Assembly (NCBI GenBank): GCA_000733355.1
Contig: JNVV01000009.1
Location: 1,069,605 to 1,133,604 of the forward strand
Length of the DNA stretch: 64,000 nucleotides
Direction of reading: 5' to 3'
Source of the DNA: Falciphora oryzae
Taxonomy: Eukaryota > Ascomycota > Sordariomycetes > Magnaporthales > Magnaporthaceae
Numbering within the stretch: position 1 is the stretch's first letter; every line of letters begins with the position of its first letter. Of the stretch, positions 30,201 to 45,648 are shown piece after piece. Both the position numbers and the translations under genes were made by a program. The notes beneath the pieces were generated by a model. The model had not been told where the DNA came from. It did not search any database and was given only the letters and a program-made list of their open reading frames with translations.

Positions 30201-33200
30201 CTAATTCTGCAGCAGCCCGAGAACCCGGTCGATGATACGCGTCGCATCTGGTCCTTTGCGATCATGGGTTTCTAAAATCATGGTACAAAATTTTTTGCCC
30301 ATAGATGCAAAGGCTTTGGCTTTCGGGTCGCGGTCGAGGATCGTATGCACTTCTCTCACTTCCTCATCTGACAGTCTTTCAATATGTCCCAGGGCAGCAT
30401 TGGAACCACCACAAGACATAAGTGGCACCCAGTCCACACCTATTTTCAAAAACTTGCGCTGTCGTTTCATCTCGGTGCTCCATATGCTTGGCGGGGGGAT
30501 TTTGCGAAGGCCGGCTTTGAGATTGTCGATAACTTCTCGTGGTAGTTTTATTACCTTCCCGTGTTTGTCATACATGCCCCCAGGCACATCGTCATACACC
30601 TTTTTGAGGCCGTGGGCTTTCAGCAAAACACCCACTATCCTGGAAATGTCTGCGTTTTCCTCGAAATGCCACCCAAGGTGAAAATACTTGTATGCCTCAA
30701 GCGTGGTATCGTCGGGTTGGAGTTGCCTTTTGGCCAAGGTTTCCAAGGGGCGAGAAGAGTGCTGTTCTTTCCATAATTCTGTGTACCGCCTGATTCGCTC
30801 TTTTGCTTGTTGACTAGTCAATTCCTTTGCTATGGCCTGGGGAGATGGAGTCGTATTTTTCTGCTTCGCTGGCCGCTCGTCTTGAGACTCATCTTGCTCG
30901 CCCTCTAGCTCGCGTGCGGAGCGTTTCTTTGTCTGAGGACTCCTTGGGGAGCCCGTGGGATTCTTGGCAGACGCAGGGCGCAAAGTGGCGATTTGCCTTG
31001 AAGACTGCCGTAGGGCAGAACGAGCCTCCTCATCAGCCCGTTTCGGACGTGACGACAGCTGATATTTCCCCACATGTTCAAAGTCCCAGAGCTCCTCTTC
31101 TTTTGCGAACCAGAGACCGCATTGCTTGCAAACTTTTGTCGCGGCTTCGGGCACTAGCAAATCGCCAGGCATCAGGAAATTAATGGCTGTGGCGAATGAC
31201 GGGGTCCTGTTGACGACCATGTGGTACTGTCCCGGCCTTGTGACGACCATCGTGCCGGGCTGGGCGCTCAGTACCTCGAATTCAATGCCTGCCGCACGGA
31301 GTGTAGATGGCCCAATGAGCAGGTTGTGGTGGCGGAGCCATTGGTCGCAGTCGAGACTGCTGTAACGGCCCCTGACGTATGCTTCGAAGGCTCCCGTAGA
31401 CTCTGGCTTGATTACAACCCATATCTTCTCCCCGGAAAGGTTGATATTGGCGGACCGATAGTGCGCGTCTTCGCGATGGAAGCCGGTGGCCGAAAACGGG
31501 TGACCGATGTGTTCATAAGGAGTAGTTACGCCGGCAACCTCCCAGTCCTGCCTTGAATCGCCTCGCTCTTCGGCTTTCTGCCGCCGCAGCTCCGCCAGCT
31601 TTGCAAGCTTGCCTGGGTGGAGCAGGCCGTTGAACTGCTCTTTGCGGTTTGTACACTGAGGCCCGACGTAGTACCCGATGGCTCCCTCAGGGGGGTTGGC
31701 GCAAATGTCGTCAAGGAACTCTTTAGGGCCCTCCTGGGGCACCGTATCGACGAAGTCCGGCACATTGAAATCGCCTTCCGGGTTGGCGAGATATACCCTG
31801 CACGTGCCCCGTTCGTCAAGGCTGTACGCCACACCGAACAGATCCCATCCCTGATCCGGCTGTTGAATCTTCTCCTTCAGTTCGGCCGAGGTAGGTGGCG
31901 ACAAGCCCTCGATGCGGATCATGCCGCCGACTGAGGGCCCGAACTGAAGGAGAAGATTCTTGGCAAAGTTTGGTCCCATGTCGTCAACGTGCATAGACGG
32001 CAGAGGCGGTTCTGGCGGAGAATTTGAAGGAAGCGGGCTGCGGCCAGACGTGGTCGAAGTCCCCCCGGCTGCCGTGATTCGGCCGTTGGGAAGGCGTGTT
32101 CGGGATGGCCCGGCCTGCGGGGCGAATTGAGCCGAAGTGAAATGGGCGGCCGACTGGGGAGACTGGGGAACAGAGCCGTCGCTTGGAACGCCTTCGACCA
32201 TGGCTTTATCTCCGTGCTGGCCGGCAGATCCCGGCGGGGGACCCGCGGCAAAAGGGCCCTCGGCTATAGCTGTTTGCGTGTCGGCAGACGTGGCCTCCCC
32301 GTTGTAGCAGTCGACCCAGTGTTGCAATAGCATTTCGAGATAAAACCATCGCACGGAGTACTCGTCGCAATCGGGAATTGTTTCCCCGAAGTAGGATCGA
32401 ACGGCCGTCAAACATTGAAGCAGACAGGTGTTGCCGGTATAGTCGCCAAGCTGGATAAATAAGGTTAGAAAATATCGACCAAGTTTCGAGGGGCTCTCCT
32501 TACCTTGTTTTGGGAGTCTTCCAGTTCAAACTCCAATTCTTTCTCACAATCCTCTCGCAGCCTGTCTGCCATGTTTCGGTCCATTCCCCAGTGCGTAAAC
32601 TTCCCCGACTTCTTCCCCGATCTTCCCTTTCGTCCACCTCTGCTTTTTCCCTGCAAGTTTTCCACCGTTTCCTCCCTCCAGTCGACAATGGCCACAACGA
32701 AATGATTAGGCTTGCCCCCCGAAAGTTGGAGCTCATCCTCAACATAGCAGAGAATGACAGCAAAGCGTCTATTCTCCATTTTACTGAGCGCACCAGCAGG
32801 AATCGGGTGGTCAATCACCGGCCATGATTTCATGGTGCCAACTTCATGGAACACCCCGGCCCTCATGAGCTTCCCAGGTTCGAACTGGTCAACCCCCTTC
32901 TTTGGGAAATGCGCGTTTCCCCACTTAACCGCGTTGGGAAGCCTGGCTTCGTAGGGCCCCCTAAACTTGGGCTTCTTGAGAAGTGAACGCGGCTTTTGCG
33001 GTTCCGAGGTTTCGAGGTCAACCACAGGGTTCGTATTGGCGTCTAAGGGAGGGCCGGCTGTATCCTGAGAGGGACTATCGGGGGGGCTGCTGAGGGCACT
33101 GCTAGAGGTTGAATGTGCTCCGAGATTGCTGCCTGGGGGTGCGTCGTCGGCGGCGTCGGGCATATCGATGTCGGCTGCATCTTGGGCGTGAACATCGCCC

Positions 33201-34012: not shown

Positions 34013-36000
34013 CGCGTTAAGCCGGGCGGTCGAGGATCGAGCGGACAAGGTCGTCGGCGAATTGCCTCGGTCGTTGGGACTCGTTCCTAAACTGATTTTA
34101 ACGGTTAGACGGAAGATCTGGCATTGGGAGGACACGAGGGGAGTACGACTGGATGTGAGACGGAGACTCGGGTGAAGGTGCGAATACGGGCACGAGAAAC
34201 ATCAGGTTTGCGCCTGACAAGCAGAAAGAAACATGAAGCCTGCTCACCATCAAGGGACACAAAGAAGGCGGAGGCCGCGCACGATAAGGAGCGAGCTTGT
34301 GACTGACAGTCTCGCTCGGGAAGCCGATAATTCTCCGGCAGGACAATGCTACAAAGCAAGTTTGCGTTTTGCTGCTGGTCGGCCTGAGCGACCTCGTTGT
34401 ATGTCGTGGGGTCGAAGCGCAATTGGGGTGGCTCGTGGTCAAAGAGGGACGAGGCTGGTGCCAGGCAGGGCTGGGCTGGATGAGTGCGTGCGTGCGTGCG
34501 TGCAGCCCCGGCCTCGCTTGCCTGGTGGGGGGCCGTCTCGTTTGCGCAGCGAGGCGTTCTAAAAGCGCAACAAACGGGCGCCTTCAAAGACGGACAGGTG
34601 GAGGCGGTAGCGACCGAGGCAGACAGGCCGACAGCCAGGAGGGTGCTCGAAAGGGATTGATTCGAGACACGAATAAAGCCCCAAGTGCCCTGGCCTCTGC
34701 GCGCGGGGCAGCGTCGACAATCGGTGGGCGGTTGAAGCGTTCGGTATCTCGCAGGCCGGCTCAATCGAGCGAGCGATGCTTGAGTTGAAGAAAGATTCGC
34801 GTGACGTAGGGCAGCTGGCCACTTCAATGCGGACTACGTGCGAATTTGTGGCTGAGGCGCTTGGTGATTGGTAGGGCTTTGGCAGCGCCGGGCAGCGGTT
34901 ATGCATAATTTGTGGCTAACGTGGCTTAGCGGAACGCGTTTTGTCGCGAAAAACCTGAGGATGAAATTTATCACACTGTGTTCGTCGCGTCAACACTGCA
35001 TCCCAACGCGAATCGTCGCGCAAACTCGCACGCCCAGTTTGGCGGGAACTTTGCGATACCTGGGTGCAAACAATTAAACATATGCATAATTTAAACGCTT
35101 GCATAGCGGATTACGCAAATACGATAGAGGGGGAGGGGTTGTCGACCAGCCATTGCTGCAGTATAGGACAATATAAACCGGATTAAAAGGCTTCCTCTGG
35201 GCCCAAATAAACGTGCGCAACCGAAACGCCCCTCAATTCGAGATGCGCACGTTAATACCCGTCCGGGTTCCATTTATAAAAGGTTGGAAGTCCAGTGAAG
35301 GGGCTGATGGTGTGTCAATGCAGGTCTTCTTGCTTGATGCAGCGTCGTGGATATCACCGTTCTTTTTCCACCCTAATAAGTGCTTGGCACGTAATTGTCG
35401 CGCATCTTGGGCGCAAACGATTCAAAATATGCATATTTAAATAATACTGTAAGGTTTTAGGTGTATTTGGCCGCCAGAATCCCGTTTCCACGATAGTTGC
35501 AAGCTTGGGTCCCCGCGAACATAGCTGAATGCGACTAGCAAAAATGAATTCCGGCAGACGCATAGATAACATTGAAGTGACTGGCAGGAAAGGGAGGCCA
35601 GGTCAGATGCCGCCTGTCACGATTGCCGCTGGGAAAAGAGACTGGCTTCAATATACCCTAGGCTTGAGGCTATCTAAAGCTGAAGAAGGAAGCTAGGAAT
35701 CGGTGCAAAGCACCGGGTTGACTGGACGGGGTTTTCTGTGGGTAATTGGACGCACGGGCCACGAGGCAAGTGACCCCCAGTGCCCTGGCTTTGGATGGGG
35801 TGGAAGCCCGCGAGGGCCCGCCACGCCATAACAGGGTGTCTCTTACGATGAATCTGGTCAAACGTACCGGTCCTAGCACAGCCGCATAAGCGGCCAGACT
35901 GCACTTTTCCTATCTGCCACCTTGAGCAGTGCCTCAAGGCACCCTGTACCATACCACCGAGAACCGGCCCGCCAGACAGGGGCCTCGGGATGCGGCTTGT
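34013..36000. other. Spacer upstream of the JmjC gene
   Basis: Holds the JmjC promoter at its left side. Two short related segments at about 35050-35090 and 35410-35445 share GCAAAC.ATT.AA.ATATGCATA, followed by TTTAAA. A GTGC/GTGCGTGC microsatellite lies near 34485-34503. ORFs here (for example about 240 codons on the minus strand, 34105-34827) lack family signatures. Confidence 0.45.
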
Positions 36001-36009
36001 CATGCAAGT

Positions 36010-36190
36010 GCTTAAGGCCGATACTGGTCGGCTGATGGGCTTGTTCTGCTAGCTACCGTGACAGCAGTTGGTGAGCTAGACCCTGTATCTAGAACATCTG
36101 GTAGTCGCTAGCACGTCTTATGCCCCTAGGGAGGCGAGAGTGAGGCAGCACTCGCTACAGACGTTAAATAAACCTAACCTAACCTAACCT
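36010..36190 (+). mobile_element. 5'-truncated LINE 3' end with (CCTAA)n tail
   Basis: Contains GCTAGCACGTCTTATGCCCC (shared with 16627-16645 in diverged form), GACGTTAAATAAAC and a tail of four CCTAA-type units ending at 36190. 5'-truncated LINE insertions with AATAAA followed by a simple-sequence tail are typical of target-primed reverse transcription. The tail abuts the last codon of the minus-strand gene at 36191, whose TAG stop (36189-36191) uses tail bases. Confidence 0.7.
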
Positions 36191-36914
36191 AGCCCTTCTC
36201 AAGATAGGCTTTATCGACTTTCTGTATTGAAAACCGCGAGAAGTGGATTTTGCGATACTGCACTGCGAAAACCTGCTCACCGGCGGCCGTATACCCAACC
36301 TCCTCAGCAGAACCGCTCGTCAAAGATAAACTACCGCCGATATCGAGGTCCGACCCTAGCGCCAGCACCCCCCCTGCAGCAGCGATTACAGCTGCGGGCA
36401 CGGCAACAGACGCGTCGAGCTTGGTCTTGTGGCAACGCGCTAGACCAACGCGAGCGTCGGTCAGCGTCTTGAAACCGCACACGAGGTAGACTTTGCTGTA
36501 TGGGCGCTGGGATTCCTTCTCCAACCAGGTGCGCACATGGGTCTCCTGACACGCAGCGCTAAAGTAAGCGCTAGCGTTGCGCAGCTGGTGAATGACGCAG
36601 AGCGGGGCGGTGATGGTTTCTAAGCGTGTGGGTGCGGAGTTTGTGGCCGCAAGCAGTTTGAGCAGGCTCAGCCCCAGTCGTGTGCCCCGTGTGCGCTCAA
36701 GCACAATGTGGAAATTTTCGAATCGTTGGGTAGCAACGTCGGGTTTGAAGGAGGGCGTGATGGGATATATAGCGTCCAGTGATTCGTCGCCGGGGCTTTG
36801 GGTAAAGGGCTGGCAAAAGTCTTGGTCGGAGTATTTGGGGTCCAGAACGAGGCGGCCTAGCTCGATGGACCCCCGGGGGATGGGACGGTTGAGCAGGAGG
36901 CTTGCGATTGACAT
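36189..36914 (-). CDS. Candidate fungal gasdermin-like pore-forming protein, C-terminus cut by a LINE
   Basis: 241 aa from MSIASLLLNRPIPRG (36914); an upstream in-frame ATG at 36989 adds 25 poorly conserved residues. Visible pattern: an IELGRLVLDPKYSDQDF start, an amphipathic central part (TRLGLSLLKLLAA), AYFSAACQETHVRTWLE, then KVYLVCGFKTLTDARVGLAR with alternating polar/hydrophobic residues, a small-residue Val/Ala/Gly hairpin-like stretch (about 170-195), and AAGEQVFAVQYRKIHF. The alternating YLV...FKT...V strands followed by a polar loop and a GEQV-FAVQYRK strand resemble gasdermin N-domains; this is inference. Length is near that of RCD-1-type fungal gasdermins. It is divergent from a TPR-CHAT protease 1.5 kb away, the usual partner type. 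A related decayed copy lies at 42.3-43.1 kb. The stop coincides with a LINE tail, so the natural C-terminus is probably lost. Could alternatively be an unrelated fungal family. Confidence 0.55.
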   Translation of the reverse strand: MSIASLLLNRPIPRGSIELGRLVLDPKYSDQDFCQPFTQSPGDESLDAIYPITPSFKPDVATQRFENFHIVLERTRGTRLGLSLLKLLAATNSAPTRLETITAPLCVIHQLRNASAYFSAACQETHVRTWLEKESQRPYSKVYLVCGFKTLTDARVGLARCHKTKLDASVAVPAAVIAAAGGVLALGSDLDIGGSLSLTSGSAEEVGYTAAGEQVFAVQYRKIHFSRFSIQKVDKAYLEKG

Positions 36915-38406
36915 GGCGCAGCGGTTGCCAAAGTGTAAGATGGAGATGTAGAAAAACCATTCAGGGGCAAATTGGGTCGGAAAAAACATGGAATTGCTTC
37001 TTTATGGAGGCCCGTAGTGGTGGCAATGGCCACGTGTCGCTGCAGAATACTTTTTACAGTTTCCGCCCGAAACCGCCTCAAATGATCAGCATGCGTCTAG
37101 AAATTTCTCCTTGCCGCCGAGCGTGGACAGAAAATCGGAGGCATTTAGGCTCCTATCAGCGTTATGTTTTACACCGGGTACAAACCCCGGCGTCGGTGGT
37201 GGGCTCCGGTCCTGTAACGGACAACACCGACGTTGTGGGTTGAGAGAATTAGCGCCCTCGCTAATACACGGCGGCCACCATCAAAGCAGCGACAGTCCTA
37301 CGCCGCGCTCAGAAATGTTACGGGGTTAACGGCGCTTGGGGTTACAGCAGGAGGCAGAGTGACTTTGTGGTACTTTACCTTCGCTCGTTGCGAACGCGAG
37401 ACCCCGGGCGCTTGCAGGCATGTAAATCCGAACATGAAGCGTTCTCGCGGGTTGAGTAAGCTCTTGGGCGAAGTTTTGGAATAACAACCCCGCCCCCGTT
37501 TTGCGTGAAGTGCCCAAGGCGATTGGCTGCTTTCGGGCAGCTTTCCGCAAGAAATTCTGCGAGCAAGTTGAAACGCGGCTCCGATGCTGGCCAACAGTCC
37601 CGAATTTCGCAGCAACTAAACCCGTCTGCATTTGGTGAGGCATTTACAACTAGAAATATTGGCTAACGGCCATCGAATCATTCCACGCCTTAGTTATTGC
37701 AACCACTACATTACAGTGGCGTAGCATTCCTGACTGTTCGAGGCAAAATTTGAGCGAGGCGAGGCTGATTGAGTGGACGGCACAGCCCAGCTAACAATGC
37801 CCAATCTGCAGCACTATAGGAACTTGGAGCTGGAGGACGTCGCTTATCCACCAGTGGTTGATGTTATTGGCATGCTGCCTTCTGAGAAATACTTCGGGCG
37901 TTTGCACGCTATAAACCCAGCCGTCGGGGATGTTAGAACCAGTGAGCTTCCAGTAATCAGCGGAAATACAACCACATTCCCCTAAGGCGCATCGCAAGGC
38001 AACTCGTATCGCAAAGGGGATGGGCCTCCAGCCAAGGCCTGCCCGGCCGTGCCGGCCGGGGAAGCCGCCGGCCCCTCGTTACAAACCCTAGGGCCGATTT
38101 CGAGGAGGCCTCCAGTGCTCGGTAAGATAGCTTCCGAGCACCTGTATATAAGGGCAGGAGTTCTCCCGCCCTATAGCTGCATCTACCTTAGAAGGCAGAG
38201 GTTTATCAAGCATACAGTCTACTGCACGCACTCCTTCTTTGCCACAACTCGGTATAAGACCAGATAAGCCGTGCCAACATATTCTCCCAAGTTCGACGCA
38301 TCTATCTGCCTCACCAACGCTTCCGGAAGCCGTCTTTGCCATCTCACTGCCACGAACGATTAAACTCGAACACCTTAACCCTGCACCTCACCTCCTGTCT
38401 CAGACC
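36915..38406. promoter_or_regulatory. Divergent promoter region between gasdermin-like and TPR-CHAT genes
   Basis: About 1.5 kb shared by two head-to-head genes. A TATATAAGG box with GC-rich palindromes lies at 38142-38156, 250 bp before the TPR-CHAT start codon. The 15-mer CCTGTATATAAGGGC also occurs at 49018-49032, so this promoter may derive from an LTR-like element. No convincing ORF in between. Confidence 0.45.
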
Positions 38407-41400
38407 ATGACTTCGGAGCGTTCAACCGCATTGGCATCCGGCTACCGCATGGACGGCATGGAGCTGTTCCACATCGAGGCGGAGATGACCTCTCTCCTTA
38501 ACGACATGAGCGACGAAGACCTTCATTCTTTCGCCGAGTTGCAGGAAGATCCCGCGAGTGATGAACAGATCGAATTGTACATCTACGCCTGCTTCATTGC
38601 CTTCAAAAGGTTGGCCTCAGTGGAACACCTCGAACAAGCTGTTCAGCGAGCAAAGGAATGGGCCGCAGGTACGCCTACCGACCACCCGGACCGCACCCGG
38701 CGATCTCACATTTTCGACATGATGTCGGCCTGGGTGCGCTACATATTCGAAAGTACTGTACCTATGCTTCCGGAAGTTATGTAAGTCGCAATTTCCCAAG
38801 CCCTTCTAAGTGGGATGGCTGCAATGTTTTAGCTTAAGTATTGCTTGTATAATGCCAACGGTAATGGGGTTAGCTGGAAATGGCAAACCGTTAACGCGTT
38901 ATATTTATTAGCCAAGAGTTAATGTTTGGCGAAGCCAGCATTACCCAAGCAGTAAGACTGGCGAATAATTACCAGCAAACGGGCCGTTTCGAAGACTTAG
39001 AAAAGGCTATCAGGATTATGGAACGGGCAGTAAATGTCGGAAGGGGATTTATTCCGCCTAGCATGTTGGGCAGCCTTGGGGGGATGCTCACAATGCGATT
39101 CGAACGGACCGGATCAATGGACGACCTTAATCGCGCTGTCGAAGTTGCCGGCATAGCAGTGAACGACACACCTCAAAACCATCCAAACCGAACTGCTTAC
39201 TTAAACGATCTCGGAAACTCGCTTGGCAGGCGATTCGAACGGACCGGATCGATGGACGACCTCAATCGCGCCATCGAAATTGCCAGTATGGCAATGGATG
39301 CCACACTTCAAAACCACCCCACCCGAATTATTTGTTTAAATAACCTTGGAAATTTGCTTGGCAGGCGATTCGAACGGACCGGATCGATGGACGACCTTAA
39401 TCGCGCCGTCGAGGTTGCCAATATGGCAGTGGATGCCATACCGCAAAACCACCCCACCCGAGCTCGTTATTTAAGCAACTTTGGAAATAAGCTTAGCAAA
39501 CGATTCGAACGGACCGGATCGATGGACGACCTCAATCGCGCCGTCGAGGTTGCCAGTATGGCAGTGGATGCCACATTTCATAACCACCCCGACCGAGCTG
39601 GCTGCTTAAGCAACCTTGGAAATAGGCTTGGCAAACGATTCGAACGGACCGGATCAATGGACGACCTTAATCGCGCCGTCAAAGTTGCCGGTATGGCAGT
39701 GGATGCCACACCTCAAAACCGCCCCGACCAAGCTGGCTATTTAAACACCTTTGGAAAATGGCTCGGAATGCGATTCGAACGGACCGGATCAATGGACGAC
39801 CTTAATCGCGCCGTCGAGGTTGCCAGTATGGCAATAAATACCACACCTCAAAACCATCCCGACCGGATTGGCTGTTTAAACAATCTCGGAAACTGGCTTG
39901 GCAGGCGATTTGAACGAACCGGATCAATGGACGACCTTAATCGCGCCGTCGAGGTTATCGGTATAGCAATAAATACCACACCTCAAAACCATCCCGACCG
40001 AATTATTTATTTAAATAATTTTGGAAATTGGCTTGGTAGGCGATTCGAACGGACCGGATCGATGAACGACCTTAATCGTGCTATCGAGGTTACTGGTATG
40101 GCAGTAAATGCTATACCTCAAAACCACCCCGACCGAGCTGGCTATTTAAACAGCTTTGGAAAATGGCTTGGCACGCGATTCGAACGGACCGGATCGATGG
40201 ATGACCTTAATTGTTTGCTTTCGTCGTGCAAAGAAGGCTGGCTTTGCCATACTGCCCCCCCGTCTACTCGCATTCGACTAGCTCGGCGTGCCGCCAACAT
40301 CCTCGCATTACAACGAAACTGGGACGAATCAAGCCAGCTGCTGCAAAAAGCTGTAAAACTCCTGCCCACTGTGAGCCCGCGGTTTTTAAACCATACCGAC
40401 AAGCAGCATATGCTTGGAGACTCTGCAGGCCTGGCTTCGATGGCGGCCGCCACGGCCCTAAATGCGGGAAAGGAGGCCTCTCACGCTTTGCAGCTTCTTG
40501 AATTCGGTCGCGGCGTTATTGCTGGTTTGCTAATGGACATGCGTGGAGACATTTCCGATCTCAAGCGAAAGTATCCCAGTTTAGCGAACGAGTTTATCGT
40601 CCTTCGAGACGCATTAGACTCGTCGGCGGACCGATCCACTTCTGCAAATTCTAGCGATAACACATCTTCGTGGGAATCGCAAGCAAAACGACGTCGTGAC
40701 GCAGACCAGAAATTTAGCGACCTCATCACCAATATTCGTGCTCAGCCAGGGTTTGACGGCTTTCTTCGTCCACCTACTGCAAGCGAGCTGATGGCCGCAG
40801 CCAATCCAGACCCTATCATCGTCGTTAATCTGAGTCCATATCGCTGCGATGCGTTCCTGGTCCAGTGCGACCAGATCAGGGTCCTGGAATTGCCTGGTCT
40901 AACGATGAAGGAAGTCCAAAAACAAGCCCAGGGTCTTCGATCTGCTTGCGCAACAGGCTCTTCCCACATGGCATTTCTGCTAGAATGGCTCTGGGATACC
41001 GCCGCTCGTCCTTGTCTAGACGCGCTCGGTTTCAAAGACCCCGTTTCTGATGACAACTGGCCTCGCGTGTGGTGGATTCCTACAGGACTCCTCAGCCAGC
41101 TGCCACTTCACGCAGCGGGACGACACGTTCGAGGTTCTGCCGAGACAGTGCTGGACAGAGTTATGTCGTCATACGCCTCGTCGGTTAAGGCATTAATACA
41201 CGGACGCCAACACCCTATTCGAAAATCCGCCGGGCCATTCTCTGATTGTGCTCTCCTGGTTGCCATGCACGAAACACCAAATCTGTCGGGCAACAGAATC
41301 CTCCCGTTTGCTGCAAACGAAGTAAAAATGCTAAAGAATCTCTGTCGTGAGCTCCAATTATGGTCGCTCACACCGATTCTGCGCAAGGACAATGTGCTCA

Positions 41401-42005
41401 AATACTTGCAGACGTGCAAGATATTCCACTTTGCCGGCCACGGGCAGTCGGACCCGGCCGAGCCTTCACGAAGCTGTCTGCTTCTCGAGGACTGGAAAAC
41501 GAGCCCGCTCACCGTGGGAGACCTCCGCGACCACAAACTCCAGGAGAACGGGCCGTTTCTTGGATACCTCTCGGCCTGTTCGACCGGAGCCAACGAGGCG
41601 GTACACCTCGCTGACGAGGGGATCCATCTTGTTAGCGCCTTCCAGCTCGCGGGCTTCCGGCACGTGGTGGGAACACTCTGGGAGGTTTCGGACAAGCACT
41701 GTGTTGACGTGGCGAGGGTGCTTTATGAGACCCTGCGGGACGAAGGGATGACGGATGAAGCGGTCTGCCGGGGACTCCATCGCGCGGTTCGCGCGCTGCG
41801 TGACGGGAGGGTCGAGAAGAAAGGAGAGATCAAGAAGGAAGGGGAGATCGAAAAGAAAGGGGAGATCGAGAAGGAGGGGGAGGTCAAGGAGGAAGGGGAG
41901 ATCAAGAAAGAGGATGCGAGAAAGGCTTTTTCTATAGTTCCTGGGCTTGCCGAAGAAGGCTTCATGAGTAGTTACTGGGTTCCCTATGTCCACTTTGGTG
42001 TATAG
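38407..42005 (+). CDS. TPR-CHAT protease (caspase-like CHAT domain with tetratricopeptide repeats)
   Basis: Exon 1 38407-38780, intron 38781-38911 (131 bp, GTAAGT...TTAG), exon 2 38912-42005; 1,155 aa in frame. Start MTSERSTAL (38407) follows a good context. N-terminal helical region (1-150), eight full 45-residue TPR-like repeats (about 190-550; each GSMDDLNRAVEVAxMA...NHPDRxGYLNxFGxWLGxRFERT) plus a ninth partial one, further TPRs, then a CHAT domain with catalytic FHFAGHG (His968) and YLSACSTGA (Cys1014). CHAT proteases (separase/caspase clan) act in bacterial and fungal cell-death systems, and the repeats serve as sensor or oligomerisation surface. A Lys/Glu-rich insertion (EKKGEIKKEGEIEKKGE) sits in the C-terminal part of CHAT. 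Catalytic residues and frame are intact, so it is probably functional. Likely partner: the adjacent gasdermin-like protein. Confidence 0.88.
39096..40210 (+). repeat. 135-bp in-gene tandem repeats (TPR units)
   Basis: Eight complete units with 135-bp spacing plus a partial ninth; each starts CGATTCGAACGGACCGGATC and units are close to identical at nucleotide level, including synonymous sites. This indicates recent unequal exchange or conversion, as in repeat domains of fungal NLR and incompatibility genes. Confidence 0.92.
41810..41912 (+). repeat. 18-bp minisatellite inside the CHAT domain coding region
   Basis: About six units of GGAGATCAAGAAGGAAGG type encode the charged EIKKEG/EIEKKG tract. 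It is unusual inside a catalytic domain, placed between the catalytic Cys and the C-terminal strand (VPGLAEEGFMSSYWVPY). Probably a surface loop. Confidence 0.8.
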
Positions 42006-42319
42006 GAGTTATTCGTGTCAGGAGGGACACATAGGTTAGCGGAAACTTAGCTTTTTAGAAGCTTTTTTAATGCCCACCCGTTAATGGCGGTATCGCGCAA
42101 AGTGCTGTCAGGAGTAAATGGCTGTCCTGGTTTAAACGCAGCACAGCCAGCCAGAAGTGGTTGGACCAGCTTCGCGTGCGGAGTCTCAAGCGAGCCAAAC
42201 AATGGCTCTCGAAATGCCTACGCTCTAAGCTACGATTCCGCTGCTGCTTGCTTCCAAACTCGTCGTTTAAGCCGGGCTTGCTGGTGAGTAAAGGCTCCGG
42301 CATTTCGCTATCGTCGGGA

Positions 42320-43128
42320 GTAGCGTCCTTAGCGCCCGATTCCTCCCCAGCCCCATCCTGCTAGGCCAGCTGATCGTAGACCGCAAGTACCCTAGCGAGG
42401 GCGCATGCCGCCCCACGCTGCCCTCTGAGTCCCTCGGCGCCGCCGCTGCCACCACGCCGTCACCCTGCCACATCGTCACCAGCACCTCTAAAGTCTTCCA
42501 CCAGGTGTGGACAGCACTCGCAGCGCTCGCCTCGGCCTCGCCCTCGCGGACATCCTCTCCGCCTCTTCGCTTCCGCCTCCACCTCCGTGAGCCTCTCCGC
42601 CCCGCTGCTCGTGTCCAAAGCAGTCGAGGACCCGCAGTTACTTCCGCAGGGCGTGCCGCGAGGGCTCCGTGCGCGCCTAGCTTGAGACGCGCCTCCGTCG
42701 GTCATTGTCCCGTGCGTACCTCGTCAGCGGGCTGCGCACCCTGACGGGCATGTGGGTCGACGCAGCGCAAAGGCGGGATGCCGAGCTCGGCACCGCAATC
42801 AAGGCGCGCGTATGGCTTTGTCTCGGCGGCCGCGGCCGGGCTCCCACAGGTGGCGGTGGATGGCCACACCGGCTTAGCGAGCGTGGCGGTGGCACCAGAC
42901 GTGGTGACAGCGTTGTTAGGTGCTCGCCATCCAAATGCGGCCCGAGTCCAGAGAGGGAATCGATGGAAGTCGGCGCTTATGCTGCGGGACCAGTGGGCAG
43001 CGGAGAAGAACAGCGTAAGTGTGAATCTTGCTGGTGAAATTCGGTCCGAAAAACTGCTGGGACAATCTGAAAGCTTCGAATTAGGCGGTGAGCAGGTCTT
43101 GTTCCAAATCGAAAGGGGACGCTCCTGA
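42320..43128 (+). pseudogene. Decayed paralogue of the gasdermin-like gene
   Basis: Collinear fragments in shifting frames match the 36.2 kb protein in order: ILLGQLIVDRKYPSEGACRP (versus IELGRLVLDPKYSDQDFCQP); KVFHQV then STRSARLGLALADILSASS (versus RTRGTRLGLSLLKLLAATN); YFRRACREGSVRA, TAG, LE (versus YFSAACQETHVRTWLE); SRAYLVSGLRTLTG (versus SKVYLVCGFKTLTD); and ELGGEQVLFQIE near the end (versus AAGEQVFAVQY). There are at least two in-frame stops (near 42588 and 42679, the latter TGG to TAG) and several frameshifts, so it is not translated whole. It lies 315 bp downstream of the TPR-CHAT stop on the same strand. It shows that the block once held two copies flanking the protease gene. Confidence 0.7.
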
Positions 43129-43137
43129 CGGCATGGT

Positions 43138-43165
43138 CGCCACGTAGCATAATATATATGCTACG
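43138..43165. other. Short palindrome GTAGCATA-ATATATATGCTAC
   Basis: Near-perfect inverted repeat between the decayed paralogue and the metacaspase-type gene. It could form a hairpin. Function unknown. Confidence 0.4.
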
Positions 43166-43372
43166 CAGGCAATTAGGGCCAAGCAAAGCGGTAATTTGGG
43201 GCACGCGCTCGGCGGGGTACATCACCAAGCAGTTAACTCAATATAAGGCAGATAATAAGCATTAAAAAGTGGCTCGTTGGACGACTAGCCCTCTGAAACA
43301 ACCAACCGCAACCAATGGAGACCACTGGATATTCGTTGTAGGCAACCAGCCGTAGCATACCGAATGCCTCAC

Positions 43373-45648
43373 TCACTTCCATGGCTCATCACCCGGTTTC
43401 ACCTGGAACAACAAATCCAGTACCTGCCACTCCATAGACCCCGCCGTTGAGGGTGCCGCCCCGAACGCCCTCCTCCTGGGTTCTAGCCTCATGAGGAGCT
43501 GTCGGAAATCCTGGGACCAGTCGCCCCCACGCGCCCCGCGCAAGTGCATTCTCTCCACCTCGTCCAGGCTTTCGATCTCCAGGGCACTCAGTGAAAGAGG
43601 GACCGGCGACGCAAATGCCTTTAGCCGATCCACTACCTCCCGGCCGTCTTGCGCGGCGGCGAGACGTGTCTCGGGCTCCGCTTGGAAGCCAACAGACCAG
43701 CAGAAGTCCTGGCCGGCCCCGATCTTAGAGTTTTCCTGGCCCACAGAGGGACACACCTGGTGCACACCAAACTCGGCGCCGCAGTTTAGAACAACCAGAT
43801 ACAGGTCTTTATCGGTGTTGTTGTGGAACGTGATCTCCACCAAGGACTTCTCCTCCACCTCATATGTGTTGTACTTTACTTTCGTCTGGAGACGCGAGGC
43901 AGGGTGGCAGAGCCCCATGCCGGCGAGCTCAGACTTGCGGGCCGGTTCCACGGCGGTGATGGAGATTAGAGGCGACGAGGTGCCCACGTATGGATCAGAC
44001 AGGCCTCGCGTCATGGAAAACCGGGCCAGGTGCTCGAGACGCCGAATCAGCGCGTCCAGGTCCTGCTTTGAGGAGGTTGCAGGCAGACGAGACAGGTAGT
44101 CGTTAAAAGCCGGCGTAAATGTGCCCCACACGTCGCTAATGATGAACTTCCCATCCTTTATGGACACGGAGAAAGCGGCATCATCATCGTTGCCTTCATC
44201 AGCACCTTTCAGCTCAAGCCAGGTCCGCCCGCCCGCCTCGTTCTGCGGCTGCCACACTTCCCGTATGCGTTCAGCCACTTGCTCCGCGCCGCAGAAGCGT
44301 ACTGCAAATCTCTTGGCGAGGGGCAGTTTCACCAGCAAAGCGGAACAGCCCGGGGAAATGTGTTCGAGATCGTGCTTCGCCTGCGCTACGAGGACAGCGG
44401 ACGATTCACGCGCCTCAACGCGGAAAACGCGGACGTGACACGCGACTGCGTCGTCCGTAAAACCGAGTCCAGGGTCGCGCCCGTACTTGAGGATGGCGTA
44501 TTCCGAGTCTTTCTCAACGCCGTGCACTTTTGTAAACAAAGTTGAGTTAGTGAATGCCTCTGCCTTACGCAAGAATGACCTAACATCGAGCGAGGATGCG
44601 TACTTTTACCGCCATTCAAGATAACGGTCTGGTCCTCGAGCGCTTTAGCAGGGTTTAACTGCGTCCTCGACACCACGTGTGCGTTGACACGCGAGCGCAC
44701 CGTGCTACTGAAGAAGGAGCGCTTCCAGTCACCAAATATCTGCGGTGTTTGGTTGTACCGGTTGGACTGGATGTTGCCGCGGATCCGCTCGAACAGCGCG
44801 TCGGAGGACACCTGCAGCGGCCCGTTGCGCAGGCTATGTAGCATCCAGTACGTGAACAGACCGTGCTGACCGTTGTGCTCGACCGCCTGCTGCGTGTCAA
44901 GACAGGCTGCCATAACGACAAAGCCCCGAACGGACGTGAACCAGGACGGCTGACTGGCCCAGTGTGCGATGCGGCACATCGTCGCCGGGTCGGGCACGTC
45001 TGCCTCCTGGTCCGACTCGTACACCCCGGATACGCCCCTGAACCTAACGAGCTCGGTTCCGCCGTCGACGCCGCGCAGTGCACCGCCCGAGTAACAACAG
45101 TCGAGGCTCGCCGTGACGACCAGACCCGCGCTCGCCATCTCCTGCATTAGCACGGCCAGCTCGAGATCGCGGAGGTATCGCCCCCCATAGAGAATGTCGC
45201 TGGGTACCAGGGCTTCGTCTTTGTCCGAACGCGAAGGGTCGGCCTTTCTGGCGTCGGCAAACACGGTGGTCGCACGTGCGCCGTGGCCCGAATAGTGGAT
45301 GTAAACTAAATCGCCCTTCTTGGCCTTTTTGGGGATGCGGCTTAACGCTTGCACTATGGACTCGTATGTCGCGTCGGCGTAGCTTCGCCTGTCGAGCTCC
45401 CTGATGTACCGCGCATTTGGCCGAGGCGCGAGGAGCTTGTCGATATGGTCGGGCGGCACGCCGAGCACGTCGACGAGGTATTCCTCGACGGCGAGGACAT
45501 CGTTCACGCAGCCTTCCAGAGGCTCATACGACAGGTTGCGGCCGGCGCCATCAAACCGCCGGGTCGTAGGAGCCTTTCCCTCAACGAGGTAGTGCTCTAC
45601 CCCAATCAGAACCGCCCACTTGTCCGGTTGCTGGTGAGGAGGCGACAT
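43373..45648 (-). CDS. Caspase-like (peptidase C14, metacaspase-type) protein with C-terminal extension
   Basis: Exon 1 45648-44610, intron 44527-44609 (83 bp, CTAAC branch, GT-AG), exon 2 44526-43373; 730 aa, frame consistent. Start MSPPHQQPDKWAVLIG at 45648 places the p20 strand right after the N-terminus. Catalytic His122 in YIHYSGHGA and Cys185 in SLDCCYSGG; other conserved parts are GCVNDV and the basic-residue-binding loop SDKDEALVPSD. After about residue 330 comes an approximately 400-residue extension with no domain I recognise, Trp-rich and probably beta-structured (FHNNTDKDLYLVVLN resembles a DUF4384-like fold often attached to caspase domains). The product is a cysteine peptidase, in metacaspases usually specific for Arg/Lys. 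It neighbours a CHAT protease and two gasdermin-like copies, consistent with a cell-death role. Confidence 0.85.

Follow-up and report, generated by a model that had tools for sequence, protein, structure and literature searches.

A probable fungal cell-death cluster of gasdermin-like, TPR-CHAT and C14 protease genes, damaged at one locus of Falciphora oryzae

Genes at the locus

We analysed 64,000 nucleotides of Falciphora oryzae contig JNVV01000009.1 (positions 1,069,605 to 1,133,604, forward strand; hereafter the window), from a genome of 50 Mb in 123 contigs that is close to Gaeumannomyces, kin of the take-all fungus. A sequence-only reading had proposed a cell-death island here, made of a 241-residue gasdermin-like frame, a TPR-CHAT protease, a decayed second gasdermin-like copy and a C14 caspase-like protease. 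All four features lie where that reading placed them, in the left-to-right order gasdermin copy 1 (minus strand), TPR-CHAT (plus), gasdermin copy 2 (plus) and C14 (minus).

Gasdermin copy 1 (36192–36914, minus strand, stop codon 36189–36191) is 93% identical to the full-length protein RB595_004078 of G. hyphopodioides and 91% to a full-length G. tritici protein. It falls short of a complete gene, because 43 of its 49 relatives have 274–325 residues and the frame breaks at the end of a repeat. Full-length relatives run about 50–65 residues past the end of copy 1 (59 in the relative P0008). Copy 1 ends after YLEKG, at P0008 residue 240, and its lost C-terminal part includes P0008 residues 241–250 and a modelled strand at 255–266. 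The interrupting element (35615–36191, plus strand) has 40 matches in the genome including itself, and the two longest of the others terminate at window base 36191. Its telomere-like (CCTAA)n run meets the gasdermin break exactly. On the strength of this coincidence we rejected an intron as the cause of the break; a whole-genome search gave 12 matches, none of them nearly identical to the missing part.

Gasdermin copy 2 (42355–43119, plus strand) was recognized by tblastn matches that fall in two frames and contain stops. The collinearity claimed earlier for the two copies is borne out, copy 2 aligning in order with almost all of the family (best tblastn E in the window, 1.5e-12). It scored 59.7 bits, and none of 200 shuffles of the stretch that preserved its dinucleotides exceeded 25.0 bits. 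Judged by its sequence, copy 2 is a relic.

The TPR-CHAT gene has two predicted exons on the plus strand: the first (38407–38780) is indicated by its reading frame, its splice signal and a tblastn match with further copies of the cluster, and the second (38912–42005) by Pfam matches to TPR and CHAT. The intron predicted between them (38781–38911, GTAAGT...TTATTAG) is the best looking of 11 frame-keeping splices, and the predicted protein of 1155 residues is 87% identical to G. tritici RB597_010314 over residues 480–1036. Its CHAT domain (40980–41807, plus strand; Pfam E 5.8e-33, over the cut-off) keeps the catalytic His and Cys in FHFAGHG and YLSACSTG, as had been reported. Behind the Cys motif, at 41812–41908, lies a Lys/Glu-rich tandem repeat of 18/36 bases. 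Upstream is a TPR array (39095–40211, plus strand) of 8.3 units of 135 bases, with 84% matches between units and four clearly variable positions among the 45 residues of the unit; seven relatives for which TPR motifs were counted have 2 to 7 copies. Near-identical repeat arrays are a mark of fungal non-self recognition proteins, and the array is a candidate sensor.

The C14 metacaspase-type gene (45648–43373, minus strand) consists of a predicted exon 1 with the catalytic part (44610–45648; Pfam C14 E 5e-18, over the cut-off, for the frame 44386–45648), a predicted intron of 83 bases (44609–44527) and a predicted exon 2 with the C-terminal part (43373–44526), which has a weak match to DUF4384. 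The two frames gave the impression of a frameshifted gene; the break is likely the intron, with GT...AG ends and CTAAC inside, and the frameshift was rejected because the spliced product of 730 residues aligns over its length with a relative of 732. That product is 90.6% identical over its length to G. tritici RB597_010313 (P0074). Both catalytic residues are again retained, His within YSGHG and Cys within DCCYSG, and among relatives the His is found in 75 of 75 and the Cys in 74 of 75, the remaining one having a gap. Conserved Asp residues presumably shape the substrate pocket.

Given one predicted intron apiece, the CHAT and C14 reading frames are open. Both proteases look intact from their sequences, and neither gasdermin copy in the window looks fit for regulated killing.

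The gasdermin-like family and a candidate switch

Structure searches with the family model returned gasdermins at ranks 1–20 (Foldseek) and 1–23 (VIA-align), with fungal RCD-1 first by Z. The family thus has the predicted fold of the gasdermin N-domain, and the earlier suggestion that it is gasdermin-like gains support from this model.

An Arg at P0008 position 250 is present in 43 of 45 aligned relatives. The tail that follows it has 39–56 residues (median 44, or 4.8 kDa) and a charge of −6 to −22 (median −12), the part before the Arg having a median charge of +3; on average the 30 residues ahead of the Arg contain 7.6 Lys plus Arg, and the 30 behind it 0.6. The acidic tail occurs in all 45 aligned relatives and is absent from copy 1 of the window. 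The conserved Arg and the putatively inhibitory acidic tail make a candidate switch, and the C14 protease might cut at this Arg. HET-Q1 sheds 40 C-terminal residues (PMC10989679), bacterial gasdermins are described as cut after Leu or Arg (PMC9612521), and metacaspases cut after Arg or Lys in a calcium-dependent manner (PMC13304501).

Recurrence in the genome

The gasdermin-like family is found at eight loci (12 matches, the two window copies counting as one locus). Five of these have a C14 gene less than 1 kb from the gasdermin in tail-to-tail orientation, together with a CHAT match no more than about 10 kb away; they are the window, C78 (68–78 kb), C59 (170–184 kb), C53 (152–160 kb) and C9 (287–293 kb). 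Two protease types at one locus, which had been called unusual, are therefore the commoner state here. A protease gene within 10 kb of the gasdermin, the mark of the fungal two-gene cluster, is found at the same five loci; in place of a single S8 or CHAT partner they have C14 as a second and nearer one, S8 genes not having been searched for. A count of six loci near CHAT was withdrawn in favor of five, because C61 matches only TPR and linker sequence and its contig has no CHAT profile match. By sequence all three genes look whole at C78, and the gasdermins at C59, C35 and C61 have stops inside the match. The chance of C14 at five of eight loci is about 2.6e-12 if the loci are independent, but they are probably old duplicates.

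Other genes were seen near some clusters. JmjC-domain frames lie near two of them, at 30201–32525 of the window (minus strand, E 6.1e-17) and at about 61.5–64.1 kb of C78 (L021, E 2.6e-17), and share 32% identity over 126 residues. A sacsin-domain frame (L023 3–2657 of C59, minus strand, E 1.1e-10) lies some 4 kb away from the gasdermin of C59.

Recurrence in other species

We counted partners for the 34 gasdermin relatives on contigs longer than 5 kb, dropping the 15 of 49 on shorter ones, among 120 of 156 C14 matches and 120 of 2460 CHAT matches. Consecutive locus tags were taken as neighboring genes, and equal-sized contigs as the same contig. At least 19 of the 34 have a C14 partner: nine by locus tag (eight consecutive, one two apart) and ten on the same contig, six of these on contigs under 28 kb and four on long contigs, where the two genes need not be close. 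The tagged gasdermin/C14 pairs are RB595_004078/004077, 010508/010507, 004099/004098 and, two apart, 003838/003836 in G. hyphopodioides, GGTG_13926/13927 in G. tritici, VN97_g9786/9787 in Penicillium thymicola, N7533_012909/012910 in P. manginii, IL306_013446/013447 in Fusarium sp. DS 682 and Daus18300_014297/014298 in Diaporthe australafricana. CHAT neighbors, a check proposed by the sequence-only reading for other ascomycetes, do occur: a CHAT gene is the third member in at least three of these clusters (RB595_010506, N7533_012907 and IL306_013445). RB597_010313 (C14) and RB597_010314 (CHAT), the G. tritici matches to the window genes, also have consecutive tags.

Distances among the gasdermins correlate with those among their C14 partners (19 pairs, Mantel r 0.79, as high in 0 of 9999 permutations). 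Copy 1 is closest to RB595_004078, yet shares its locus with a C14 gene of the RB595_003836 type (88.6%), and the gasdermin near RB595_003836, RB595_003838, is 87% identical to copy 1. In another comparison the C14 neighbors of two gasdermins that are 88% alike show a likeness of only 43%. Executioners therefore seem to move, or to be converted, between clusters. In the window the first gasdermin would have decayed, and the second would then have been cut by the repeat.

Interpretation

The window probably holds, in damaged form, a fungal death cluster that recurs elsewhere and is composed of a gasdermin executioner, a TPR-CHAT sensor/protease and a C14 protease. The basis of this reading is the predicted gasdermin fold, the catalytic residues in both proteases (with the predicted fold of C14), the recurrent linkage, and the conserved Arg with its acidic tail. 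As proposed, the TPR array would sense a signal; CHAT, C14, or both in series would cleave the gasdermin at or near the conserved Arg, removing the acidic tail; and the freed part would insert into membranes, presumably as pores, and kill the cell. The earlier proposal of an executioner and protease locus stands as to its neighborhood, in this genome and in other species; a whole executioner gene is no longer there.

Several observations weigh against this reading. The best Foldseek E (5.9e-3) is modest, the middle of the family model (residues 162–202) is unreliable, and sequence searches of Pfam and of PDB sequences gave no gasdermin link, HET-Q1 being outside that comparison. CHAT copies at the five trio loci keep both catalytic motifs in three cases, the Cys motif only in one and neither in one. 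C14 is missing from three of the eight loci and, among the matches listed, from 15 of the 34 relatives; the 10 kb retrieved at C58 hold a C14 gene and no gasdermin, and 10 of the 15 CHAT matches occur outside the family loci. The Mantel correlation partly reflects species relationship, the pair with 88% and 43% likeness departs from it, and the action of C14 on the gasdermin is something that we infer.

A fuller version, which we advance tentatively and rate below even chances, is a complete cascade in which the CHAT sensor would activate a dedicated C14 protease that cuts the gasdermin after the near-invariant Arg and so frees it from the acidic tail; once copy 2 had decayed, the executioner would have been replaced by copy 1, taken from another cluster, and then lost to the repeat. 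If true, fungal metacaspase-type enzymes would have a genetically linked death substrate, comparable to caspase-1 and GSDMD. The foremost competitor is a two-part cluster in which CHAT is the sole activator of the gasdermin and the role of C14 is separate or modulatory. A TPR-bearing CHAT protease does activate a Podospora anserina gasdermin (PMC12881547), and the ten CHAT matches elsewhere indicate that CHAT and C14 can occur apart; however, the closest neighbor at five loci is C14 (within 1 kb, tail to tail) and not CHAT, and C14 is, among the matches listed, the pairing most often seen in other species, so that we regard this as possible but somewhat unlikely. Less likely still is mere linkage within a defense island, where C14 and CHAT would have other defense tasks with gasdermins among them. 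The C14 gene without a gasdermin at C58 favors it, as do the gasdermins at C35 and C17, where the 10 kb retrieved contain no CHAT and no C14, whereas the tail-to-tail order is constant across paralogues and other genera. Copy 1 might be a working gasdermin independent of cleavage, its frame being otherwise whole and its length near that of RCD-1 (244 and 257 residues; PMC12881547), but the loss is due to a repeat end and also removes P0008 241–250 and the modelled strand, which makes this very improbable. It is equally improbable that the fold match is false or that the family is a different beta-rich pore former, given the unbroken run of gasdermins at the head of both structure searches.

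Relation to known systems

Like het-Q1/het-Q2 and the P. anserina TPR-CHAT pair, the cluster proposed here combines a gasdermin fold, a nearby protease gene, a TPR-CHAT partner and a short C-terminal tail; unlike the Podospora clusters, it has a C14 metacaspase-type gene as a third part and nearest neighbor. HET-Q1 is cut at Phe238, whereas here the acidic tail follows a near-invariant Arg. Neurospora crassa RCD-1 is described as acting through the meeting of two alleles and not through cleavage (PMC12881547). Bacterial gasdermins likewise adjoin caspase-like proteases, including C14 and CHAT (PMC9612521), but in operons and with a tail of about 20 residues as against about 44. Three bacterial C14 relatives among the matches listed (P0126, P0131 and P0140; two were checked) combine C14 and CHAT in a single chain. 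Compared with metacaspases, the C14 protein here is longer by about 400 residues at its C-terminus, and its gene has a gasdermin next to it.

Reviews give fungal gasdermins one S8 or CHAT partner, with CHAT cleavage shown in Podospora (PMC12881547, PMC10989679), and a CHAT gene controls incompatibility in Aspergillus fumigatus (PMC11138114). In the portions of the reviews consulted no fungal C14 partner is named, the primary survey not being covered. About 17% of partner proteases are given as cysteine proteases, CHAT "among which" (PMC12881547), which leaves room for others, and the published survey may contain C14 partners that are not named as such. C14 as a gasdermin partner may thus be new for fungi, S8 and CHAT partners and bacterial C14 partners being already known.

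The reviews also ask what the death-related proteases of fungi cut; the trio with its near-invariant Arg points to a candidate enzyme, substrate and site. Turnover of the clusters appears to involve decay, the insertion of repeats and exchange of partners. If the proposal is true, C14 enzymes and gasdermins would be paired in fungi, as they are in animals and bacteria.
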